Below, piece by piece: positions 25,701 to 29,577 of a stretch of 64,000 bases of DNA. The stretch lies in NCBI RefSeq assembly GCF_014635665.1, contig NZ_BMDG01000003.1:310001-374000 (forward strand), given 5' to 3'. This stretch comes from Isoptericola cucumis (GTDB lineage Bacteria; Actinomycetota; Actinomycetes; Actinomycetales; Cellulomonadaceae). Every line of letters begins with the position of its first letter. Positions within the stretch are counted from its first letter, which is position 1. The translations under genes and the position numbers were made by a program. The notes beneath the pieces were generated by a model, which ran no database searches, had not been told where the DNA came from, and saw only the letters and a list, made by a program, of their open reading frames with translations.

Positions 25701-25816
25701 TCCACCGCCCCGTCGACCGGAGCGACCGCCGGCCGCTCAGCCGGGTGCTCAGCCGGGTGCTCAGCCGGGTGCTCCGGCGGTGCGGGGACCGGGGCGTGGA
25801 GCGAGTCGCCGCTCAC
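22793..25816 (-). CDS. large ATPase LuxR-family transcriptional regulator
   Basis: Encodes 1007 residues. A Pro-rich N-terminus with HPAE repeats is followed by an AAA/NACHT-type ATPase (PPMIGRAAELALLREAF, Walker A VVGGEAGIGKTRL, Walker B VVVVLEDLHWSDD). A TPR-like helical region spans about 500-930. The C-terminal LuxR helix-turn-helix reads LTERERQVLALVAEGLTNGQIAERLF, then ISRKTASVHVSAILRKLG. This is the LAL/MalT architecture, usually an activator gated by ATP and a ligand. The frame is open 468 nt further upstream. I chose the GTG that overlaps the stop of a 58-residue ORF because both upstream coding potential and a Shine-Dalgarno belong to that ORF. Confidence 0.88.
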   Translation of the reverse strand: MSGDSLHAPVPAPPEHPAEHPAEHPAERPAVAPVDGAVDRQVTWHDEQVPASWTREQPGSAAAPPMIGRAAELALLREAFASTADGSGAAVVVGGEAGIGKTRLVQEFLAAPGTGEGPDALVLRGQCADSGSGPIPYAAPTGLLADVVHAIGADATLAAAGPAADALSVLAPGLVDVRHDVDTGRLPEVLADLTTALAADRPVVVVLEDLHWSDDVTRTVLARLVRSAPTSRVLVVATYRSDDVGRRHPLRTVLAELERSRLATRVDVPRLDAAEAGRLVTTLLATRGEPAEVSGATLSDLVERSEGVPFYVEELTEFAGDTMPDSLRDVLLLRYSTLGDAAQTFCRAVAAAGQHAPHELLIAMLGTEHLERAESAAREAVDAHVLVAEPDGYRFRHALMQEAVADELLPGEARRLHAACARALEDGRRTLADVAAAADHWWRARVPDRALASAVEVVRTGDAFGQTSTAVTAAAGERALELWDLVPDAAQVAGLHHAELLRLVSTALQDTARVDRAAGVAGEALAEWPPDDPAGRAQALMTLAHIRAKAGDPRSGDLLDEALALLPPDDHAGRAPVLRQQARNAMMDHRPDEAIAVASAAYDAATAAGDAANASLALNLRGLSRVDRGDLDGLAELERAREVGGDDWRAQAHYYTNASDTRLKLGRYAEAEAIAETGARRARELGAGWASRAMLEGNVAEAWIGQGRWDDAQAWYERSVPLVDPSDYAVYLQERWTWLTTWRGDVAQAQRRAHAHRATWLRFGRMEEQIRARVAGTLADLALLRDDLDDALEQVRLATVPDALSPFYRLTLLAVAGRVLDRARSAGRAVDVGPYREALSTGASWPTFPTWAALFAAEVGDGPWEAVVAAEGPAHLRPYALYRDGASLLAAGDRRAARPLLDDAVAAAEAIGCGLVADRAGGLLTGAGLARGDVRRSATTSTAERALTERERQVLALVAEGLTNGQIAERLFISRKTASVHVSAILRKLGVASRTEAAVVARTGSTS
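25736..25771. repeat. three 12-bp tandem repeats near the LuxR regulator start
   Basis: CTCAGCCGGGTG (plus-strand reading) occurs three times, encoding repeated E-H-P-A on the minus strand within the proline-rich N-terminus. Confidence 0.9.
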
Positions 25817-27508: not shown

Positions 27509-28633
27509 GTGACCGACTACTACGAGAGCCTCGGCGTCCCCCGCGACGCCTCGGCCGAGCAGATCAAGAAGGCGTACCGCAAGCTCGCCCGCGAGCTGCA
27601 CCCCGACGTCGCCGGCGAGGCCGGCGAGGAGCGGTTCAAGGACGTCGCCCGCGCCTACGAGGTGCTCTCCCACCCGGAGAAGCGCCAGCAGTACGACATG
27701 GGCGTCGACCCGTCGTCCCCGAGCGGCGGCGCCGGCGGCGGTTTCGGCAACGGCTTCGGCTTCCAGGACATCTTCGAGACGTTCTTCGGCGGGGGCGGCG
27801 CCCCCGCCGGGCCGGTGCCGCGCGCCCGGCGCGGCCAGGACGCCCTCGTGCGGATGGACGTCGACCTCGCGGAGGCCGCGTTCGGCGCCAAGCGCGAGCT
27901 GCAGGTCGACACGGCGGTCGTGTGCGGCACCTGCGGCGGCGACGGCTGCCGCCCCGGCACCGACCTGAAGACCTGCGAGGTCTGCCAGGGCCGCGGCAAC
28001 GTGCAGCGCGTCGCCCGCTCGTTCCTGGGCCAGGTCATGACGACGGCGCCCTGCGCCGCCTGCCAGGGCTTCGGCACCGTGATCCCCGAGCCCTGCGCGG
28101 ACTGCTCCGGCGAGGGCCGGGTCCGCTCGCGGCGCACCCTGACGGTCAACGTCCCCGCGGGCGTCGACACCGGCACGCGCATCAAGCTCACCGCACAGGG
28201 CGAGGTCGGCCCCGGCGGCGGCCCCGCCGGCGACCTGTACGTCGAGATCCGCGAGAAGCCGCACGACACGTTCGTGCGCCGCGGCGACGACCTGCACTGC
28301 ACGCTGCCGGTGCCGATGACCGCAGCCGCCCTCGGCACGGTGCTCGACCTCGAGACGCTCGACGGCGCGCAGGAGATCGACCTGCGGCCCGGCACGCAGC
28401 CCGGCCAGGTCGTGACGCTCAAGGGCCTCGGCGTCGGCCACCTGCACACGGGCGGGCGCGGCGACCTCAACGTGCACATCGACGTCCAGGTGCCCACCAC
28501 GCTGGACGAGGAGCAGACCGAGCTGCTGCGCACGCTCGCCACGCTGCGCGGCGAGGAGCGTCCGGAGCCCCGCCTGGCGGCGGCCCACCCGGGCGTCTTC
28601 TCCCGGCTGCGGGACAAGCTGAGCGGCCGCTGA
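27509..28633 (+). CDS. dnaJ: chaperone DnaJ (DnaJ2 type)
   Basis: Encodes 374 residues from a GTG. The J domain starts [32 protein letters not shown], with the HPD triad that stimulates DnaK. A Gly/Phe-rich segment follows ([21 protein letters not shown]). The zinc region has four CxxC units (CGTC, CEVC, CAAC, CADC), and two C-terminal substrate-binding domains complete it. It lies in the HrcA-controlled unit, apart from any dnaK-grpE locus, as is usual for the second actinobacterial DnaJ. Its stop is 1 bp from the first of two micro-ORFs leading to rsmE. Confidence 0.96.
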
Positions 28634-28634
28634 C

Positions 28635-28727
28635 GTGAGCGCGAGGAGCCCCCGCGGAGGTACGCCGAGGAACGAGGTGTGCCGGAGCGAGGCACCGCAG
28701 GGCTCACGTGAAGGGAGCACGGGGTGA
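28635..28727 (+). CDS. micro-ORF 1 (30 residues) of a tandem duplication before rsmE
   Basis: The frame is GTG to TGA and contains PRNEVCRSEAPQGSR. It begins one base after the dnaJ stop, and its TGA overlaps the GTG of micro-ORF 2 (GTGA). It is the first unit of an 89-bp tandem repeat. The two copies differ at about a dozen positions yet keep length, start, stop and overlap. I do not recognise a protein family. It may instead be a repeat element whose reading frame is incidental. Confidence 0.4.
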   Translation: MSARSPRGGTPRNEVCRSEAPQGSREGSTG

Positions 28728-28812
28728 GCGCGAGGAGCCCCCACGGGAGTCCGCCGAGGAACGAGGTGTGCCGGAGCGAGGCACCGCAGGGCTCACGTGA
28801 CGGGAGCAGGAC
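28635..28812 (+). repeat. two 89-bp tandem repeat units between dnaJ and rsmE
   Basis: Units 28635-28723 and 28724-28812 both start GTGAGCGCGAGGAGCCCC and share an identical central block of about 45 bp. A third start, GTGAGCGC, is the rsmE start itself. Each unit contains GCTCACGT (28702-28709, 28791-28798), complementary to ACGTGAGC at unit boundaries. No other copies occur in the window. Confidence 0.9.
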
Positions 28813-28816
28813 GTGA
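28724..28816 (+). CDS. micro-ORF 2 (30 residues) coupled to rsmE
   Basis: Second copy of the 30-residue frame, again containing PRNEVCRSEAPQGSR. It starts on the overlapping GTG of micro-ORF 1 and its TGA overlaps the rsmE GTG (GTGA). GGGAG stands in the right place for both itself and the following gene. The chain dnaJ, micro-ORF 1, micro-ORF 2, rsmE would therefore be translated by successive re-initiation, if it is translated at all. Confidence 0.4.
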   Translation: MSARSPHGSPPRNEVCRSEAPQGSRDGSRT

Positions 28817-28818
28817 GC
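28791..28818 (+). promoter_or_regulatory. hairpin occluding the rsmE start codon
   Basis: GCTCACGT (28791-28798) pairs perfectly with ACGTGAGC (28811-28818), which contains the rsmE GTG. The 12-nt loop holds the Shine-Dalgarno GGGAG. A 6-bp version (28702-28707 with 28724-28729) covers the start of micro-ORF 2. A ribosome finishing the upstream frame would open the stem, so rsmE translation should depend on it. Confidence 0.55.
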
Positions 28819-29577
28819 GCTCCCGTCTTCCTCGCGGAGGGCAGCGACCTGGGCTCGCTCGCGCCCGGCGGGCTCTACGTGCTCGACGGCGCGGAGGGCC
28901 GGCACGCGGGGGTCGTCCAACGTCGCGGTCCGGGGGAGCGCCTCGACGTCGTCGACGGCGCCGGCACGCGCCTGCGCTGCGTCGTCGAGTCGGTCGACGG
29001 CCCGCAGGTGCACCTGCGCGTCGAGGACGTGGTCGTCGACCCCGCGCCGGGCGTCGTCCTCACGCTGGTCCAGGCGCTCGCCAAGGGCGACCGGGACGAG
29101 CTCGCGGTCGAGGCCGCGGTGGAGGTCGGCGTCGACGCCGTCGTGCCCTGGCAGGCGGAGCGGTCGGTCGTGGTGTGGCGGGGGCAGCGCGCCGCGAAGT
29201 CGCGCGCGAAGTGGGTGGCCACCGTGCGCTCGGCCGTCAAGCAGGCGCGGCGCGCCTGCCTGCCGCCGGTAAGCGAGGCACTCACGAGCCGACGGCTCGC
29301 CGCCCGGGCGGGCGAGGTGGTGGCCGCCGGCGGCGCCGTCGTCGTGCTGCACGAGGACGCGTCGACCCCCCTCGCGGACGTCGCGCTGCCGTCCCGGGAG
29401 CCCGCCGAGCTGCTCGTCGTCGTCGGGCCGGAGGGCGGGATCTCCGACGAGGAGGTCGCCGCGCTCGCCGACGCGGGGGCCGTGCCCGCCCGCCTGGGCC
29501 CGCACGTGCTGCGCACCTCGACGGCGGGGCCGGTGGCGATCGCGCTGCTCAGCCAGCGCCTCGGCCGCTGGGGCTGA
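28813..29577 (+). CDS. rsmE: 16S rRNA (uracil-1498-N3)-methyltransferase RsmE
   Basis: Encodes 254 residues from a GTG. The N-terminal PUA-like domain includes EGRHAGVVQRRGPGERLDVVDGAG. The SPOUT methyltransferase follows, with LVQALAKGDRDELAVEAAVEVGV, PWQAERSVV, the SAM-binding knot motif VVVGPEGGISDEEV and LGPHVLRTSTAGPVAI. RsmE methylates U1498 of 16S rRNA near the decoding site. It follows dnaJ in many actinobacteria. Its start lies inside a hairpin created by the tandem repeat. Confidence 0.95.
   Translation: MSAPVFLAEGSDLGSLAPGGLYVLDGAEGRHAGVVQRRGPGERLDVVDGAGTRLRCVVESVDGPQVHLRVEDVVVDPAPGVVLTLVQALAKGDRDELAVEAAVEVGVDAVVPWQAERSVVVWRGQRAAKSRAKWVATVRSAVKQARRACLPPVSEALTSRRLAARAGEVVAAGGAVVVLHEDASTPLADVALPSREPAELLVVVGPEGGISDEEVAALADAGAVPARLGPHVLRTSTAGPVAIALLSQRLGRWG

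Follow-up and report, generated by a model that had tools for sequence, protein, structure and literature searches.

Mycobacterial interspersed repetitive units (MIRUs), reportedly first described by Supply et al. in 1997, are to our knowledge repeats without obvious dyad symmetry. PMC12548453 presents them as apparently mobile elements that insert at start codons and carry an open reading frame (ORF) coupled at -4 nt; given this coupled ORF, insertion is there considered likely to have little effect on the gene. MIRUs of 77 and 53 bp lie between senX3 and regX3 (PMC4213456), lengths that differ by 24, a multiple of three. The two 89-bp units considered here come from the window, that is, the whole 64,000-nucleotide stretch of Isoptericola cucumis DNA (genome G000) that was analysed, and are very probably tandem copies of one short mobile repeat, non-autonomous and built on the MIRU plan, whose ORF would make its arrival at RTGA junctions almost harmless. 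The original prediction had known of no described element of this form; in that respect it was mistaken, since mycobacterial MIRUs have the same form (PMC12548453).

The array lies on the forward strand between dnaJ (27509..28633, TGA stop at 28631-28633, DnaJ domains by Pfam matches PF01556, PF00226 and PF00684) and a gene of the RNA methyltransferase family (28813..29577, GTG start at 28813, PF04452 at E = 1.2e-42), which is taken here to be rsmE and has orthologues in all 18 genomes of the genus; the Pfam neighbourhood comprises HrcA, DnaJ, the RNA methyltransferase (RsmE), a HIT protein and PhoH. Unit 1 (28635..28723, 101.1 bits with the covariance model R1) and unit 2 (28724..28812) stand head to tail with an 89-nt period (2.1 copies and 90% matches by TRF) and hold, as had been predicted, GTG-to-TGA frames of 30 codons plus stop (28635-28727 and 28724-28816), the third start being that of rsmE. 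The predicted GTGA chaining is found from unit to unit and from unit 2 to rsmE, each overlap being 4 nt, and is absent at the dnaJ end, where TGA is followed by a single C and then GTG, near and non-overlapping. The two copies differ at 8 of 89 positions rather than at about a dozen, and the residues PRNEVCRSEAPQGSR are identical in both. The array is bounded by two copies of the insertion-site repeat GACGTGAGCGC, the left one (28632..28642) enclosing the first GTG and the right one (28810..28820) the rsmE start. Inspection of the sequence also picks out Shine-Dalgarno-like stretches in unit 1 (AAGGGAG, 28711..28717; GA-rich stretches resembling it occur in most units) and before rsmE (ACGGGAG, 28800..28806), as well as a segment, GCTCACGT, which in unit 1 (28702..28709) is complementary to ACGTGAGC at 28633-28640 and in unit 2 (28791..28798) to the same string in the start context of rsmE (28811-28818). 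Elsewhere in the window, at 25735-25774, there is a perfect 12-bp tandem repeat, GCTCAGCCGGGT, in 3.3 copies.

The likeness to MIRUs is one of plan: short repeats at start codons, in tandem direct copies and in the sense orientation, with an ORF coupled over 4 nt to the downstream gene and a unit length that is 2 mod 3, as it is in the 89-nt arrays. A MIRU core sequence finds matches in 73 of the 148 genomes of one genus, presumably Mycobacterium (control, 0). At seven of 12 MIRU loci (L305, L306, L307, L309, L310, L312 and L315) an RTGA-to-RTGA unit measures 50 or 53 nt, both of them 2 mod 3, and the units end GA-rich, some loci offering other possible starts; at L313 the distance is 50 or 53 to GTGG, and at L304, L308, L311 and L314 no RTGA-to-RTGA frame of 50 or 53 nt is found. 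The sequences themselves are no more alike than shuffles (local score 14 against a shuffle mean of 15.7, with 402 and 412 of 500 shuffles reaching the score), and models R1 and R2 give no match on the MIRU unit core in the 12 loci at E up to 10; of the weak matches that these models give in MIRU loci and in parts of the window other than 28635, the five inspected look, by eye, unrelated to the repeat. Membership of the MIRU family is accordingly rejected on the grounds of shuffle-level similarity and of a host outside the mycobacteria. The present repeat further differs from MIRUs in its 89-nt unit, a segment complementary to its site, a sister family at stop codons and perhaps its conserved hairpin. 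A literature search over titles, the starts of abstracts, text passages and few subscription journals yielded no MIRU-like element outside mycobacteria; what is new here is the hosts, the homologous stop-codon sister family and the segment complementary to each copy's insertion site.

Genome G000 has four clear copies, the two of the window and one each on contigs C15 and C6. At E up to 0.01, BLAST against 38 relatives gives matches in 16 of them; in 11 the matches are strong, all within the genus (G006, G014, G022, G025 and G031 have weak matches only). A strict pattern is found in 10 of the 18 genus genomes, its reversed control giving no match; with one genome per species it picks out 32 stretches, confined to Isoptericola or Krasilnikoviella, three Ruania and two Nocardioides. 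A relaxed pattern matches five of 394 genomes of the class, those in G000 and G008 being real and the other three looking like single chance matches; its reversed control matches eight genomes, so that a wide distribution across the class is rejected for this pattern, which diverged relatives would escape. The set counted below holds 56 copies, 44 from the Isoptericola-group genus and 12 from Ruania and Nocardioides; BLAST rows below 75 bits, which are chance matches and partial copies, were left out with the exception of L052. The hosts are thus Isoptericola/Krasilnikoviella, Ruania and Nocardioides, all outside the mycobacteria.

In 37 of the 56 copies TGA falls exactly 90 nt after the start and within an NTGA overlap, whose NTG begins an ORF of 100 codons or longer in 27 cases, another unit in six and a short frame in four; spread over several loci and species, this closure is more than chance. 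Two copies with 3 extra nt close at nt 93 with the overlap kept, and one closes at nt 144. The orthologous copies L041 and L049 close at nt 114, in phase 1 to the apparent next start, and copies with other length changes (L015, L018, L027, L030, L046, L051, L067 and L082) continue in frame into whichever unit or gene follows. When the next start is placed at the right-hand repeat in all 56 copies, what it opens is an ORF of 100 codons or more in 38, another unit in 10, a short frame in seven and nothing in one (L061); nearly all copies are in the sense orientation, and 48 are followed on their own strand by such an ORF or by another unit. The 89-nt tandem arrays occur in the window, in G007, in G008 (at two loci), in G013 and in G016, with exceptions of 87 and 90 nt at L051, L072, L082 and L030. 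Shortened units are found at rsmE (26 nt in G013, 41 nt in G005), at the gene for an MBL-fold protein (23 nt in G016, 50 nt in G017) and in L051 (65 nt); all five lengths are 2 mod 3 with an overlapping stop, the phase thus being kept in a group that was picked by eye and whose members in G005 and G016 may have arisen from something other than the repeat. The altered rsmE junctions of G016 and G002 have no such overlapping frame.

Some copies depart from this plan in ways of their own. L052 (G017:C1:1105209-1105355) is a 143-nt variant with an enlarged internal part, which the GTGA overlap still closes. In Ruania rhizosphaerae, L061 (offset 5226 on the reverse strand) coincides with the stop codon of a gene and is followed by a GC-rich inverted repeat, with no coupled start. 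At the apparently orthologous sites L002, L017, L041, L047 and L049 an extra short frame intervenes between the repeat and the main gene, and a GTGGCACRAGGNAGTGACAC-like stretch is common to four of these.

The dnaJ-rsmE and murI-MBL junctions, each compared over 18 genomes, provide the empty sites. At dnaJ-rsmE, GACGTGAGCGC occurs once and uninterrupted in G001, G004, G006, G009, G012, G014 and G015, and the junctions of G010 and G011 are about one base off this string; in G000, G003, G007, G008 and G017 one or two units are present, with a copy of GTGAGCGC on either side, and the flanking string common to both ends extends in G000 and G003 to the 11 nt of GACGTGAGCGC. On the RsmE tree the filled state needs five changes, at least four when starred branches are used, and clusters no more than shuffled labels do, a lack of clustering that fits repeated gain and also repeated loss. 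The murI-MBL junction (...GC followed directly by ATGAG) is uninterrupted in 15 of the 18 genomes, the inserts being one unit in G013 (where the upstream racemase gene is confirmed by Pfam), one shortened and one full unit in G017, and 23 nt in G016. Compared with orthologous empty sites the insertions are precise, and the flanks are repeats of 8-11 bp that hold the start codon. The junction is duplicated: the shared run around the start averages 8.07 nt against 6.55 in permutations, none of 5000 of which reaches it (28 sites), with shorter shared ends at some sites (2 nt at L003, 3 at L073, 4 at L042). Target-site duplication, a feature of MITEs, is therefore also a feature of the 89-bp repeat.

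Upstream frames ending in the overlapping TGA contain Pfam domains in nine of 10 tested, and so do downstream genes in nine of 10. Natural operon partners (opcA and pgl, for 6-phosphogluconolactonase; uvrC and rapZ; the transketolase-C subunit and E2) are separated because copies sit at the coupled junctions between them, and the downstream genes (rsmE, pgl, rapZ, an ABC transporter, E2, an MBL fold) are functionally unrelated. A mechanical count finds overlapping upstream stops at 34 of 46 sites, an upper estimate that includes unit 1 of the window, where the dnaJ stop does not overlap, and that is inflated because GC-rich frames stay open by chance; the upstream frame is open in 40 of 45 cases, as against 11 and 29 in shifted control frames. 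One option in the original prediction, a repeat element exploiting the junction, is borne out by the precise empty and filled sites, by the unrelated genes and by what follows 48 of the 56 copies. The outcome that would have marked an ordinary REP-like repeat, with most copies in non-coding gaps, in both orientations and with broken frames, is not what the 56 copies present.

Coding bacterial MITEs such as the Rickettsia palindromic elements (RPE), as PMC2229807 describes them, are likewise small, structured, non-autonomous repeats capable of in-frame fusion with genes, and copies L015, L018 and L027 do just this; unlike RPE, the 89-bp repeat has the start codon as its usual site, and in most cases a coupled stop ends its ORF. 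No copy was seen inside a gene among the 56 counted, a set put together with no particular search for copies in such places. REP elements, which are moved by RAYT/IS200-like Y1 transposases, are likewise short hairpin repeats present in several copies per genome. A Y1 transposase as the driver here finds no support, Y1_Tnp (PF01797) having no match in the 18 genus genomes (a control search matched five of 14 genomes). IS110-type DEDD transposases, present in six of the 18, do not follow the copies and find no support either: copy-rich G008 has none, and G001 has five matches and no copies.

The reading of the array as a MIRU-type mobile repeat can be set out as a series of steps. A copy would enter DNA at an RTGA(G) start codon, often one that forms an overlapping stop/start (ATGA or GTGA), and the insertion site would be duplicated around it. 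The old start codon would now start the repeat's 30-codon ORF, and the end of the repeat would provide a Shine-Dalgarno-like sequence and the second copy of the start codon, its TGA overlapping the start of the original gene; the ribosome's path from gene A to gene B would become one from A through the repeat to B. With that path coupled throughout, insertion, and growth of the array by 89 (2 mod 3), would therefore be near neutral. The 30-codon ORFs are presumably translated, their coupling would protect expression of the downstream gene, and the repeat probably spreads by transposition and not by another copying route.

A second family bears on how sites are recognized. Model R1 also gave weak tandem matches spaced 88-89 nt, which turned out to form a family of their own, beginning CTGAGCCGGAGGTGCAGCGCAGGGTGAGGGCCGAGGAACGAGG and placed at stop codons (CTGA). 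Its core is homologous to that of the rsmE repeat (local score 32 against 16.9 for shuffles, none of 500 reaching it), and at E up to 1e-4 it turns up in 26 of the 61 genomes that represent the GTDB family, and so in 11 of its 25 genera; G000 has 30 matches and G443 at least 70. Its loci (L194-L209, L211-L213 and L244-L303, in G000, G004, G007, G008, G010-G017, G023, G443, G450, G463 and G466) have a period of 88-93 nt and are often tandem arrays. CTGA is found in 65 of 77 first copies, the upstream frame is open for at least 80 codons in 72 of the 77 (19 and 57 in control frames), and six of eight upstream frames tested have Pfam domains. The two families share the homologous core, the tandem arrays, a hairpin plan (the CTGA hairpin also covaries) and a site-complementary segment; they differ in the site, which is the stop codon of the upstream gene for the CTGA family and the start codon for the rsmE repeat. 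In G000:C15 an IS110-type transposase gene (64571-65005) adjoins a CTGA array (65144-65325, L244), possibly by chance.

The complementary segment of the CTGA family fits the last codons of its own host gene (9.22 against 6.60 permuted, 0 of 5000, over 74 filtered first copies), host bases -4 to -1 pairing, in the best register, in 62, 74, 71 and 61 of the 74. This pairing may guide insertion, or the match may arise only afterwards, the segment being rewritten, for example by template switching at a quasi-palindrome. It is conceivable, if rather improbable, that the RTGA and CTGA repeats represent two target specificities within a single new class of mobile element, with insertion guided by base pairing that takes in bases of the upstream host gene and the segment re-specified at each site, MIRUs then being a convergent or very distant branch; such an element would address the TGA of gene ends and coupled starts, and would therefore be harmless there.

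Quite unlikely is an origin with no transposition, in which start-codon contexts would exchange the repeat through gene conversion or illegitimate recombination, or the units would be left over from gene duplication. It would draw on five loci (L043, L046, L050, L053 and L055) at which the first 20-32 nt of the downstream gene equal or nearly equal the 5' end of the repeat, as in a partial tandem duplication; the proteins there have what look like repeat-derived N-terminal extensions (MSARSPRAG-, VNPRSPR-, MTARSPRG- and MNLRSPRGGSA-). It would also draw on the array of G007 and G008, which carries the same rare variants in both and is missing from G011, the sister of G007: this clean junction points to precise loss of the array and is consistent with recombination between repeats. 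Against an origin without transposition stand the site-specific duplications and the fact that the genes hit are unrelated and lie in hosts of different families (Isoptericola, Ruania, Nocardioides).

The hairpin of the unit is conserved and covaries. In alignment A1, 95.9% of cells pair, and cells changed on both sides number 46 against 12.5 in shuffles (0 of 500), the structure having been drawn from the same alignment and slid versions of it failing. Folded singly, the units differ (z is -2.62 for the first unit of the window and 0.17, no better than shuffles, for the second), and Rfam 15 has no covariance-model match over 28400-29100 at E up to 5. After CACCGCAG, about 8-10 nt of each unit tend to complement the region around the start of that unit: in a set of 28 sites, in which each orthologous group is represented once by a choice made by hand (L052, L061, L072 and L085 left out), pairing scores 5.96 with the own start against 5.08 permuted (0 of 10000) and 5.23 with the right-hand site against 4.77 (23 of 10000). 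The complementarity may reach into host bases, as at L067 (CCGATGA with TCATCGG), and is slight at L027, L073 and L082.

A translational regulator, another option of the original prediction, is conceivable, but the genes downstream are functionally unrelated. The properties just described invite comparison with a cis-regulatory leader, in which a uORF or RNA hairpin, conserved for its ability to sense some signal, would tune the gene coupled to it, the segment acting as a switch by pairing with its own or the next start. The covarying hairpin, the fit of the segment to both starts and the Shine-Dalgarno-like stretch between the arms would suit such a leader. It is nevertheless very unlikely to be the explanation: the genes downstream have nothing in common, the repeat is missing at orthologues in sister species, and a right-arm hairpin serving as a start-codon switch does no better than shuffles, 34, 21, 58 and 12 of 200 of which fold as well in the four examples tried.

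An open frame by itself means little in these units. Frame 1 is open in 54 of 55 copies, and shuffling these 55 units leaves codons 2-29 free of stops 67% of the time; of the other frames, frame 3 is open in 43 copies and the three antisense ones in 55, 53 and 35. Differences among 43 distinct units fall on codon positions 1, 2 and 3 in the numbers 2331, 2106 and 1951, and 57 of 196 changes are synonymous against 139 non-synonymous (29%, with 25% expected), so that purifying selection on the 30-codon peptide is rejected for want of a clear synonymous excess. What is conserved is the length modulo 3, the ribosome-binding site and the covarying hairpin, not the peptide. The peptide gene that the original prediction also entertained, a real small protein duplicated in tandem, can scarcely be credited even though frame 1 is open more often than in shuffles and the two window copies share identical residues, for besides the absence of peptide selection the unit peptide has no Pfam match and +1 insertions that rewrite its C-terminus are tolerated as long as the unit keeps its length or becomes fused to what follows (L050, L030).

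The array read as a MIRU-type mobile repeat has consequences for annotation as well as for biology: for gene callers, such repeats displace the starts that are annotated and give rise to small proteins or N-terminal extensions that are spurious. The hosts are soil and environmental bacteria, which makes the question workable outside the tuberculosis bacteria, and the stop-codon sister family, together with the site-complementary segment, offers testable hints on site recognition. That a second, sequence-unrelated element has the MIRU geometry suggests that selection keeps the geometry itself: the densest sites of a compact genome are open to a repeat that carries a 2 mod 3 frame, a ribosome-binding site and a duplicated start.
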